This document shows positions 5,879-9,069 of a stretch of 39,267 bases of DNA, one piece after another. Source of the DNA: Balneolales bacterium. GTDB taxonomy: Bacteria > Bacteroidota > Rhodothermia > Balneolales > Cyclonatronaceae. The first letter of the stretch is position 1. Every line of letters begins with the position of its first letter. The notes below the pieces were generated by a model. The model did not search any database and was not told where the DNA came from. It saw nothing but the letters and a program-made list of their open reading frames with translations. Location of the stretch: NCBI GenBank assembly GCA_020832405.1, contig JAFIET010000035.1, positions 1 through 39,267 on the forward strand, read 5' to 3'. A program made the translations under genes and the position numbers.

Positions 5879-6454
5879 ATGACACGCATACATATTCTCA
5901 GTTCAACAGACCGGCCGGGTTCAATGGCACTCAAAATCTCCGAATTTGTCAAAAAGCAGTACGACGATCTCGGTGTTGAAGCGGAAGTAATTTCCCTGGA
6001 AGATTTCCCGATTCAGGACGTTGCCGGCGGCAAATACGGTGCTGATATCCCCAGTGTGAAAGCTTTCAACGAGCAGGTACTCGACTGCGACGGCCTGCTG
6101 ATGGTCATCCCGGAATACAATGGTTCCTACCCCGGTATTCTCAAATTATTTATTGACTACCTGCCTTTCCCGGCCGCTTTTGACAAACTCCCGATTGCAT
6201 TTATAGGTGAAGCGGCCGGTGCCTTTGGCTCCCTTCGTGCCGTAGAGCAAATGCAGATGGTCTGCAACTACCGCAACGCTTATCTGTTTCCGGAGCGGGT
6301 ATTTTTGCAGCGGGTTCACAAAATCTTCAGCCCGGAAAACGGGATTTCCGATGAGCTGCAGGCCAAACTGCTCGACAGCCTTATCAAAAACTTTGCCTCC
6401 TTCACCGAACGCAACAAAGGTGAACGGGAGCGTAAAGCCGGCGTAACGGCTTAG
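5879..6454 (+). CDS. NADPH-dependent FMN reductase family flavoprotein
   Basis: The product (191 residues from this start) has the flavodoxin-like fold of the NADPH-dependent FMN reductase family, which moves electrons from NAD(P)H to FMN or to quinones, chromate or azo compounds. The N-terminal beta strand and phosphate loop read IHILSSTDRPGS, replacing the common GSxRxxS loop. The family hallmark PEYNGSYPGILKLFIDYL lies in the middle, and GEAAGAFGSLRAVEQM follows. The reading frame stays open upstream to 5717, but those 54 residues are basic, low in conserved features and absent from the family. I therefore chose the ATG at 5879, immediately before the first beta strand. The physiological substrate cannot be told from sequence. 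The gene is single and ends in a strong terminator. Confidence 0.85.
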   Translation: MTRIHILSSTDRPGSMALKISEFVKKQYDDLGVEAEVISLEDFPIQDVAGGKYGADIPSVKAFNEQVLDCDGLLMVIPEYNGSYPGILKLFIDYLPFPAAFDKLPIAFIGEAAGAFGSLRAVEQMQMVCNYRNAYLFPERVFLQRVHKIFSPENGISDELQAKLLDSLIKNFASFTERNKGERERKAGVTA

Positions 6455-6461
6455 AAACTGC

Positions 6462-6505
6462 AAAAAAAATCCCCTGTCATCGCGAAAAGACAGGGGATTT
6501 TTTTT
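6462..6505. terminator. Bidirectional intrinsic terminator
   Basis: A 9-base perfect stem (TCCCCTGTC at 6470-6478 with GACAGGGGA at 6489-6497) has a 10-base loop. It is followed by eight T on the + strand and preceded by eight A. It can therefore end both the + strand flavoprotein gene and the - strand alpha-CTD-like gene that converge here. Confidence 0.9.
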
Positions 6506-6520
6506 GGAATTAATACGAAT

Positions 6521-7039
6521 TCAGGATCCGGTCAGGGTTAAACTATCCTGCTGTTCCTTCATCATTTCTTTGGCACAACTGATGAGGGTTTGGTTAGTTA
6601 CAGCCCCGCAATGCCGAAGAGTGCCAAAATTTTTGTGCTCTCTATAGTATTTCAAAAATGCATCCGGACCGGTGATACCGTTCAGGTGCAACACATTTTT
6701 CGGGCGCATCGGCATAGTATGGTAAGTCTTGAGTGCGCTGTCGCAGAGTTCACTCTGAAACGTATCTGATGCTGAAAAACGAACCTTTTCATTTTGGACA
6801 GGGCGATGATCCTGTTCAGCTGTTTTTTCAATTAAAGCTGAGGCAAGAGCGATGAGTTCCTGATTTGTTTTTGCTCCGCAATGCCGGAGCTGTAAGAAAT
6901 TTCCGAATTTCTTGTAATATGTAAGGAAACCGGGAACATTGTCAAGGCGGCTAATTGACAGAGCATTGAATGCCCGTTCGCTTAAACTGCCAAAAGCACT
7001 GGAAGCAGAAAGGGCCTCCAAGTTATGTCTATATACCAT
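6521..7039 (-). CDS. Tandem RNA polymerase alpha-CTD-like (helix-hairpin-helix) protein
   Basis: This 172-residue protein consists of two related modules, about residues 16-70 and 103-160. Each ends in LRHCGAxTNQ after a matching FLxYYxxxxNF segment. I read them as copies of the C-terminal DNA-binding domain of RNA polymerase alpha. Module 1 has LSERAFNAL where E. coli alpha has the Arg265-Asn268 helix (here Arg22, Asn25). Its CGAKTNQEL supplies the equivalents of Gly296, Lys298, Ser299 and Glu302 (Gly55, Lys57, Thr58, Glu61). Module 2 keeps Arg112, Asn115, Gly145 and Thr148 but has Val147 and Thr151 at the Lys and Glu positions. Asn-to-Gly spacing is 30 in both modules, versus 28 in E. coli. 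There is no alpha N-terminal assembly domain, so this is not RpoA. The frame extends to a TTG at 7150, but the ATG at 7039 sits just before module 1. The role is unknown; promoter or UP-element binding is inference. Confidence 0.62.
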   Translation of the reverse strand: MVYRHNLEALSASSAFGSLSERAFNALSISRLDNVPGFLTYYKKFGNFLQLRHCGAKTNQELIALASALIEKTAEQDHRPVQNEKVRFSASDTFQSELCDSALKTYHTMPMRPKNVLHLNGITGPDAFLKYYREHKNFGTLRHCGAVTNQTLISCAKEMMKEQQDSLTLTGS

Positions 7040-7381
7040 AGAAGTATTTGTTAAGATTTGAGCTGATTTACACGCAATGCTTTCACAACCGGATTGTAGT
7101 CCTGTACTTATATTAATTCGAGTCCTGTAAGTCCCATAATTATGAAGCAATTTTAATATTTGAGCACCTGTCCTGACTTAAGATTCCCAAATCTCATGAA
7201 ATCGGGCAAAATGCGCAAATTTGGTTGTGCTTATGATAATAATTATTCCTCGTCATGCAAAGACAATCGATTATATTTTACAAATCATGTTTTCCGAATT
7301 CATCCGGCCTTTATTGCACTATCTTAACAAGAAGCATCCCCAACCTCTGATATGTGCTTAGTTTTCTGAAATTATTGATTT

Positions 7382-8296
7382 ATGACTAACCTTTTTCTGT
7401 TGGTTTTCTGTCTGGTGCTGGGCGCTTTTTTGAGGCGTATTAAGGATTTTCCCGAAAATTCGCCTATGGTCCTGAATCAGTTTCTGATTTACATTTCGCT
7501 TCCTGCCCTTGCACTCATTTACATACCGCAGATCACACTCAGCCGAGAGCTGCTGTTCCCGGTTGCTACCTCATGGCTGGTTTTAGGTTTTGCACTTATA
7601 ATTATACCGTTGCTGGGCAGGCTTTTCGGCTGGTCGCGGGAAACGGTTGGTTGCCTGCTGCTCACGGCAGGGCTCGGGAACACTTCGTTCGTAGGATTTC
7701 CGGTAATTGAAGCGGTTTATGGCCCTGAAGCCCTCAGAATTGCACTCATGGTTGATCAGCCCGGCTCTTTCGTAGCTGTATCAACGGCAGGAATCATTAT
7801 CGCGTGCACCTACTCCGACAACGAACTTCGCAAGCGGGATATCTTCCGGAAAGTGCTGTTGTTTCCTCCCTTCATCACATTTGTGTTTGCGATCGGCATG
7901 AATTTAGCCGGAATTGAAGCCCGCGGCATTCCGCTTGAAGTACTCGAACGCCTGGGTGCCACACTTGCTCCGATTGCCTTAACCTCGGTAGGCATGCAGC
8001 TTTCTTTCAGCCTTCAAAAAGAATCTGTCGCGCCTTTGATCTGGGGGCTTTCCTATAAGCTGCTGCTGGCACCGCTGCTGCTTAGCGTGCTTTTTATTTT
8101 TGTACTGCAAGGCAGCGGAGAAGTAGTTAAAGTAAGTATCATGGAAGCTGCAATGGCCCCCATGATTACAGGTTCCATACTTGCGATTATGTACGGCCTT
8201 AACCCAAAGCTTGCCTCGCAAATGGTCGGTATCGGGGTTCCGTTGTCTTTTCTGACCCTCTTCGGGTGGTATTATATTCTTGAATGGCTGGGGTGA
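7382..8296 (+). CDS. AEC family transporter (auxin efflux carrier type)
   Basis: This 304-residue, very hydrophobic protein has about ten membrane segments arranged as two five-helix halves, as in the AEC / membrane transport protein family (bile-acid/auxin-carrier fold). Features typical of the family are NQFLIYISLPALAL near residue 30, the conserved GNTSFVGFPVIEA in the fourth segment, and the second-half segment MEAAMAPMITGSILA. Members export or import small organic anions such as malate, malonate or amino-acid derivatives; the substrate here cannot be assigned. The gene stands alone, about 340 bases from the divergent alpha-CTD-like gene, and converges with the FloA-like gene, leaving only 23 bases between the stops and no clear hairpin. 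Confidence 0.85.
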   Translation: MTNLFLLVFCLVLGAFLRRIKDFPENSPMVLNQFLIYISLPALALIYIPQITLSRELLFPVATSWLVLGFALIIIPLLGRLFGWSRETVGCLLLTAGLGNTSFVGFPVIEAVYGPEALRIALMVDQPGSFVAVSTAGIIIACTYSDNELRKRDIFRKVLLFPPFITFVFAIGMNLAGIEARGIPLEVLERLGATLAPIALTSVGMQLSFSLQKESVAPLIWGLSYKLLLAPLLLSVLFIFVLQGSGEVVKVSIMEAAMAPMITGSILAIMYGLNPKLASQMVGIGVPLSFLTLFGWYYILEWLG

Positions 8297-8319: not shown

Positions 8320-9069
8320 TCAATCCATAGGTGACCGTGAAATGACAATATCATGCTCAAGTAAAATCAGCTTGAAGTTCTGCTCCCAGAATGCCTTGCG
8401 AAGCACATTATCGAGAATCAGCTTCCTCAGCTGCGCTTCATCTCCGGCTTTCATGCGAAGCAGCTCTTTATGATACCTGCTCAGGTCTGTAATTTTGCGC
8501 TTAATCTCTTTGCGCACGGGTTCCCCGGAGAAAGAATCGAACGCGACCGACATCAGAGGCCGGCGGTAACTTGCCTGATATAAGTAATGGTACTCCATCC
8601 CTGAAAATTCGAATTCTCCGGATAGCTTTAACCCGAGGATCTGTTCCGCTTCCTCTATTACCTGCGTAAGTGGCTTTCCTGAAAGATCGATCAGGCAAAT
8701 GTGCCTGAAGCCAACTTTAAGCGATTCTATTTCCGTTTGCTCCAGGTATTTCATGGCCTGCACAACCTGCATGGGGTTGCCGCCTGAGGCCGCATGAATC
8801 TGAAGCTTCTCTACAGGTACAGGCTGCCGCAGCTTCTCAGAAAGTTTCGCAGCTTCAGCTATATCCTGCCTGAACCCTCCCCGGATAAATACATTAACAG
8901 CCTGCTGAAACTGTAAATCGACACCATAGCGACGAAAGCGAAATTTTTCGCGGTAAACGATTCCTATAAAAAACAGCAGAACGGAAATTAAGAGCAATAA
9001 AGGCGTAAACAGCACGCTGATACAGGTTTTTGGTGAAATAAAAGGTGTTTCAGGCAGGAACAAAGCCAT
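8320..9069 (-). CDS. Membrane-anchored protein resembling the N-terminal part of flotillin FloA
   Basis: The protein has 249 residues. One strong membrane segment lies at about 19-39 (LFTPLLLLISVLLFFIGIV), followed by a basic cytoplasmic entry. Residues 86-140 recall FloA (YqfA), the bacterial membrane-microdomain scaffold. VEKLQIHAASGGN followed by VVQAM matches FloA's LExHYLAGGNVDRVVxAL, and ICLIDLSGKPL followed by VIEEAE matches AAIDLAGRDVLEAVQ, with similar spacing. FloA is usually about 330 residues with a second hairpin-forming hydrophobic part and a long coiled coil rich in Ala and Glu. Here the first membrane segment is single, and the C-terminal 100 residues are charged and do not match the FloA SPFH core clearly. 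It may be a divergent or shortened paralogue. The similarity was found by eye and needs a profile search. No operon partner is evident. Confidence 0.55.
   Translation of the reverse strand: MALFLPETPFISPKTCISVLFTPLLLLISVLLFFIGIVYREKFRFRRYGVDLQFQQAVNVFIRGGFRQDIAEAAKLSEKLRQPVPVEKLQIHAASGGNPMQVVQAMKYLEQTEIESLKVGFRHICLIDLSGKPLTQVIEEAEQILGLKLSGEFEFSGMEYHYLYQASYRRPLMSVAFDSFSGEPVRKEIKRKITDLSRYHKELLRMKAGDEAQLRKLILDNVLRKAFWEQNFKLILLEHDIVISRSPMD

Follow-up and report, generated by a model that had tools for sequence, protein, structure and literature searches.

The carboxyl-terminal domain of the RNA polymerase alpha subunit (alphaCTD), which has a helix-hairpin-helix (HhH) type fold, is the part of the enzyme that recognizes upstream promoter sequences and is the target of many activators. 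The window analyzed here, a stretch of 39,267 nucleotides from a Balneolales bacterium, codes for a small protein that appears to be built of two such domains. The question raised by this locus is what two alphaCTD-like modules can do when they are detached from the polymerase. The reading favored below is that they bind DNA, and the observations that count against it are identified where they are given.

The two-module gene and its conservation in the genus

The reading frame is on the minus strand (6521-7039, stop included) and runs from an ATG at 7039 to a stop codon at 6521-6523, coding for 172 amino acids. The ATG is preferred over a TTG that would yield 209 residues because the homologous proteins start at about the same position. 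The original prediction had delimited the gene correctly, leaving its strand unstated, and was also right in describing two tandem modules without an alpha amino-terminal domain. Module 1 (6815-7000) and module 2 (6545-6730), both on the minus strand, have ~60 residues each and carry the motifs LRHCGAKTNQ and LRHCGAVTNQ, respectively. Aligned with each other they score 106 (BLOSUM62), whereas none of 20,000 shuffles scored above 51. The linker that completes the protein (residues 75-99; 6743-6817, minus strand) is predicted to be mostly disordered (pLDDT <50) and differs in length and sequence among orthologues. Curated family searches of the window protein reveal no sigma domain, and the RpoA of the same genome is intact and encoded elsewhere (L014).

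The gene stands alone. It is convergent with a gene coding an NADPH-dependent FMN reductase (5879-6454; PF03358), from which it is separated by a strong two-way intrinsic terminator (6462-6505) composed of A8, a 9-bp stem and T8, whose predicted fold has an energy of -27.9 kcal/mol (z -6.1). Note that a simple terminator scan overlooked this element because its loop limit was 8. On the other side, a divergent intergenic region of 342 bp with 65% A+T (7040-7381) is common to the two-module gene and to a divergently oriented Mem_trans transporter gene (7382-8296). Judging from composition and gene order, this region must contain the promoter of the two-module gene. The order of genes is conserved in the genus, with the FMN reductase gene convergent wherever the contig extends that far and a FloA-like gene nearby. 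In the window the latter is found at 8320-9069 (minus strand); its product scores below the Pfam cut-off (19.9 versus 34 bits) and seems to be a diverged flotillin-like protein, conserved next to this locus in the genus. The transporter gene is lacking at this place in some relatives. A functional assignment by operon logic was discarded, given the convergent orientation of the FMN reductase gene and the inconstancy of the transporter gene. There is no conserved operon partner from which a pathway could be deduced, which counts against the DNA-binder reading. Neither Rfam matches nor defence genes are found near the gene.

The protein had been regarded as an orphan, a description that does not hold. 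A search of 60 related genomes identified orthologues in all five other genomes of the genus among them (E 3e-34 to 2e-17), and both modules are present in the six genomes. Nothing significant turned up, with either the protein search or the module profile, in the five genomes that represent other genera of the family. Orthologues are 29-38% identical to the window protein over the alignment, compared to 71-94% for the neighboring FMN reductase and for RecA, showing that the two-module protein evolves fast. The closest orthologue pair (L004/L005), with a dN of 0.26 and saturated dS, nevertheless shows purifying selection on the protein. Module 2 sequences form a clade of their own (support 93, 48-column alignment), and the duplication of the module therefore predates the genus. 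In the contig search, the single window protein had no match; an alignment of four orthologues matched public records, those of four relatives being metagenome assemblies of Balneolia or Balneolales. No homologues of the two-module protein were found in phages, plasmids or viral contigs, PHROGs gave no significant match, and a literature search covering few subscription journals yielded no description of such a protein.

Relationship of the modules to alphaCTD

As a single sequence, the window protein has no usable match in the curated families of Pfam and NCBIfam, so profile tests were required to assess its likeness to alphaCTD. Its sole Pfam match, Cas_APE2256, was rejected (E 0.1, spanning the linker and outside the module cores), as was its match among PDB sequences, an unrelated polyprotein (E 0.46). 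The cut-off of the RpoA CTD family PF03118 is reached by none of the six members, the best E value being 0.075, with a match in two of the six; this was counted against the DNA-binder reading, as was the lack of resemblance above shuffles between module 2 of the window protein and the CTD of its own RpoA.

Profiles were built from 12 modules (two per protein from the six genus members), from the amino-terminal modules of four sigma-region-4 proteins, and from these 16 together. The 12-module profile matches the amino-terminal modules of the four sigma-region-4 proteins with E values of 2e-18 to 1e-10. The reverse search, with the profile of the latter, recovers both the 12 modules (E 1e-15 to 8e-9) and RpoA CTDs (E about 1e-7), whereas none of 5,000 shuffled decoys gave an E value better than 0.007. 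When 394 genomes were searched without preselection (E<=0.001), the 16-module profile found only the family itself, the sigma-region-4 proteins, RpoA (confirmed on the fetched loci) and one stray ORF. The stray match, of 33 residues in a broken frame (L105, genome G292), looks like chance and was set aside. Among PDB sequences, RpoA accounts for 13 of the 15 matches of this profile (best 6e-4), and there is one RecR match with E 0.6. Taken together, these profile searches establish that the modules of the window protein are homologous to alphaCTD.

The predicted structures point in the same direction. The AlphaFold model of the whole protein has a mean pLDDT of 71, with the modules at about 85, and module 2 modeled alone reaches 93. 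The module 1 model superimposes on the RpoA CTD 1z3e_B over 64 residues (Z 7.3, 2.5 A), and alphaCTDs fill most of its top rows. For module 2 they rank second to fourth, with Z values of 5.5-5.8 that are level with HhH domains of Rad51/Dmc1. Note that Z values of such size can be common among small helical domains, and that Foldseek E-values are by themselves not significant for either model. Both modules are thus predicted to have the alphaCTD fold, less specifically so for module 2; as Rad51/Dmc1 HhH domains fit the latter about equally well, a further point against the DNA-binder reading, its specific tie to alphaCTD rests on homology with module 1. In sum, the original proposal that both modules are alphaCTD-like is borne out for module 1 by profile match, fold match and residue table, and for module 2 by profile match and the module-alone model: a helical fold is predicted, and the profiles do not place the modules in an unrelated HhH family.

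The residues that contact DNA in alphaCTD give a finer view. The E. coli rrnB P1 complex has R265 and N294 inserted into the minor groove, with backbone contacts made by K291 and K298 (PMC7822876). DNA binding depends critically on R265 and N268 (PMC11434276). As had been noted, module 1 carries equivalents of R265, N268, G296, K298 and E302 (R22, N25, G55, K57 and E61), with an Asn-to-Gly spacing of 30 versus 28 in E. coli. Module 2 of the window protein retains R112, N115 and G145 and has V147 and T151 at the K298 and E302 places. A search for these residues in the orthologues finds the R265, N268 and G296 equivalents in 12/12 modules; in the joint alignment that includes the sigma-region-4 proteins, R265 and G296 are present in 16/16 modules and N268 in 15/16. 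The E302 equivalent occurs in 9 of the 12 modules (module 2, 4/6) and the K298 equivalent in 7 (module 1, 5/6; module 2, 2/6), both being mostly retained in module 1. That module 2 lacks the Lys in four of the six species counts against the DNA-binder reading. The loss of Lys and Glu from module 2, reported from the window sequence, is correct for that species but not general. The division of labor suggested on its basis, in which one module binds DNA and the other may do something else, finds no support: module 2 always keeps Arg, Asn and Gly, with Lys or Glu variably present, and is more basic than module 1 in the window protein. A functional split between the modules is possible.

Other positions have changed. 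The N294 equivalent is found in none of the 12 modules, where it is replaced by H, Q or G, and the K291 equivalent is replaced in 11; both observations count against the DNA-binder reading, as does the acidic character of module 2 in four of the six species (it is basic in the window species). The K271 equivalent is also lost. Every one of the 12 modules has F, Y or L at place 259, and just one has an acidic residue at place 261. The patch D259/E261, established as the sigma-facing patch of E. coli alphaCTD, is thus essentially gone, which argues against ordinary polymerase recruitment via sigma region 4. Read against the E. coli contact map, the residue table suggests that the core of the DNA-contact surface is retained, that some contacts are altered and that the sigma-facing patch is lost. 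A separate observation concerns the residue directly before the hairpin Gly (place 295), which is Cys in 16/16 modules and Phe or Leu in the aligned RpoA CTDs. This invariant Cys and the constant presence of the FMN reductase gene next to the locus are the basis on which a redox role could, speculatively, be asked about.

Comparison with known alphaCTD-like proteins

The window modules have in common with the RpoA CTD (PF03118) the fold, the helix order, R265, N268, G296, mostly E302 and, in module 1, K298. They differ from it by being two residues longer before the hairpin, by the invariant Cys at 295 and a Phe at 289, by essentially lacking N294, K291, K271 and the 259/261 patch, and by falling below the Pfam cut-off. 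A further difference from RpoA is that two modules are found in one chain without the alpha amino-terminal domain.

The nearest relative found is the amino-terminal module of the sigma-region-4 proteins of Bacteroidota (E 2e-18), which features the same insertion and Cys-Gly hairpin. These proteins are encoded in four loci (L083, 4234-6207; L084, 4685-6685; L085, 2475-4640, minus strand; L086, 4741-6951), have 650-740 residues and are covered by no curated family. They carry one clear alphaCTD-like module followed by a sigma-70 region 4 HTH and ~400 conserved residues, whereas the window protein consists of two modules only. A second alphaCTD-like module seen by eye in the middle of the L086 protein was not supported by the profiles. 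Some of their genes adjoin genes for DndD-like ATPases, unlike the stand-alone window gene, which has no defence neighbors. The gene following that of L084 codes for a DndD/PbeC-like protein (PADLOC E 1e-96), and the one following in L086 is similar by eye, which suggests a role of the sigma-region-4 proteins in phosphorothioate-linked or other defence islands. Their weak likeness to MzaA of the MZA anti-phage system is confined to the region-4 part.

PRK07758-type proteins (NF005841) are small and stand-alone like the window protein, and one of them (L051, 2531-3016) likewise has two alphaCTD/HhH-like copies. The latter is a 162-residue frame from a different branch that matches PRK07758 with E 4e-66 and adjoins dihydrofolate-reductase-like and glyoxalase-like genes. 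It has a Cys-rich start, scores above the PF03118 cut-off and lacks the R265 and N268 pair, the window protein being the opposite in the last two respects; the NF005841 model matches neither the window protein (P0001) nor its orthologue L006. Among the small proteins of the order matched by alphaCTD profiles, the three inspected (L050, L051 and L052) are generic HhH or PRK07758-type and were dismissed as unrelated to the window gene. The genome of the window also codes for a large SWIM/SNF2-associated helicase-type protein (L015, 1465-3147 of G000:C42; 1187-residue open frame) with an alphaCTD/HhH-like domain near its amino terminus. PglW of type-2 BREX, set beside the window protein by description, is a large defence kinase in which the alphaCTD-like fold is reused as a domain outside RpoA (PMC12839542). 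The existence of alphaCTD-like domains outside RpoA is therefore already known from PRK07758-type proteins and PglW, and the sigma-region-4 proteins described above add a further case. What sets the window family apart is that it is composed of two alphaCTD-like modules and nothing else, with the R265/N268 pair intact.

Proposed function and competing explanations

The gene, its conservation, its alphaCTD homology and the retained contact residues are observed, and the fold is a prediction; from them we infer DNA binding, its A/T preference and an effect on transcription. The reading as a whole, to which a probability of about 0.58 is given, is that the protein is a polymerase-free, bivalent minor-groove DNA binder made of two domains of alphaCTD stock joined by a flexible linker. 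The Arg of each module at the R265 place would be inserted into a narrow, A/T-rich minor groove, assisted by the Asn at the N268 place and by the hairpin around the Gly at the G296 place. The protein would grip two nearby sites as do the paired alphaCTDs of one polymerase on an UP element. Since the alpha amino-terminal domain is absent and the sigma-contact patch is lost, none of the known routes into the polymerase or modes of contact with sigma region 4 would be expected. Being unable to join the polymerase, it would work by covering upstream promoter DNA or altering its shape, either as an alphaCTD competitor or as a local regulator, maybe with a further partner. A narrower version, in which it is a genus-specific mimic of paired alphaCTDs that competes with RNA polymerase for UP elements (an anti-UP-element factor), is tentative and on balance unlikely.

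The modules might instead have become mainly protein-docking domains, making the protein an adaptor that binds the polymerase, sigma or an activator, or a decoy for the usual partners of alphaCTD. The fast evolution of their surface, the acidic module 2 of four of the six species and the loss of N294 and K291 would fit such a role, the F/Y/L at place 259 of all 12 modules could form a new contact, and alphaCTD is a known docking domain, bound for instance by Spx in 1z3e, the complex that heads the list of structural matches. The R265 and N268 equivalents are, however, present in 12/12 modules, as expected for DNA contact, whereas the positions of known protein contacts (259/261 and 271) are not conserved, and protein docking as the main role is considered doubtful.

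A general HhH-type nucleic-acid binder, nucleoid- or RNA-associated and without a special tie to promoters, would agree with the HhH-type fold of alphaCTD itself, with the higher Z value of module 2 against the Dmc1 HhH domain (6.5) than against alphaCTD (5.8), and with the resemblance to plain HhH domains of other Balneolia proteins that have weak alphaCTD profile matches. It is made improbable by the genome and PDB profile searches, which return RpoA and not the HhH families of RuvA, RadC or ligase, and by the conservation of both the R265 and N268 equivalents, a pair that L051 and L015, which are of HhH type, do not keep (compared by eye). That the closest modules are the amino-terminal ones of ~700-residue sigma-region-4 proteins, at least one of which adjoins a DndD-like gene, could also be taken to mean that the window protein is a functionless remnant of such a protein from mobile defence islands, or else a broken rpoA. 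This origin is very improbable in view of the two modules found in 6/6 genus genomes within a conserved neighborhood, the purifying selection seen for L004/L005, a duplication older than the genus and an intact rpoA elsewhere in the genome.

The family and the amino-terminal modules of the sigma-region-4 proteins represent a distinct branch of alphaCTD outside RpoA, marked by an insertion and a Cys-Gly hairpin of its own; in other bacteria this branch occurs as a fusion with sigma region 4. If the reading as a polymerase-free DNA binder is true, the two-module protein would provide a simple competitor for the sites of alphaCTD and a naturally occurring means of identifying the promoters that depend on them.
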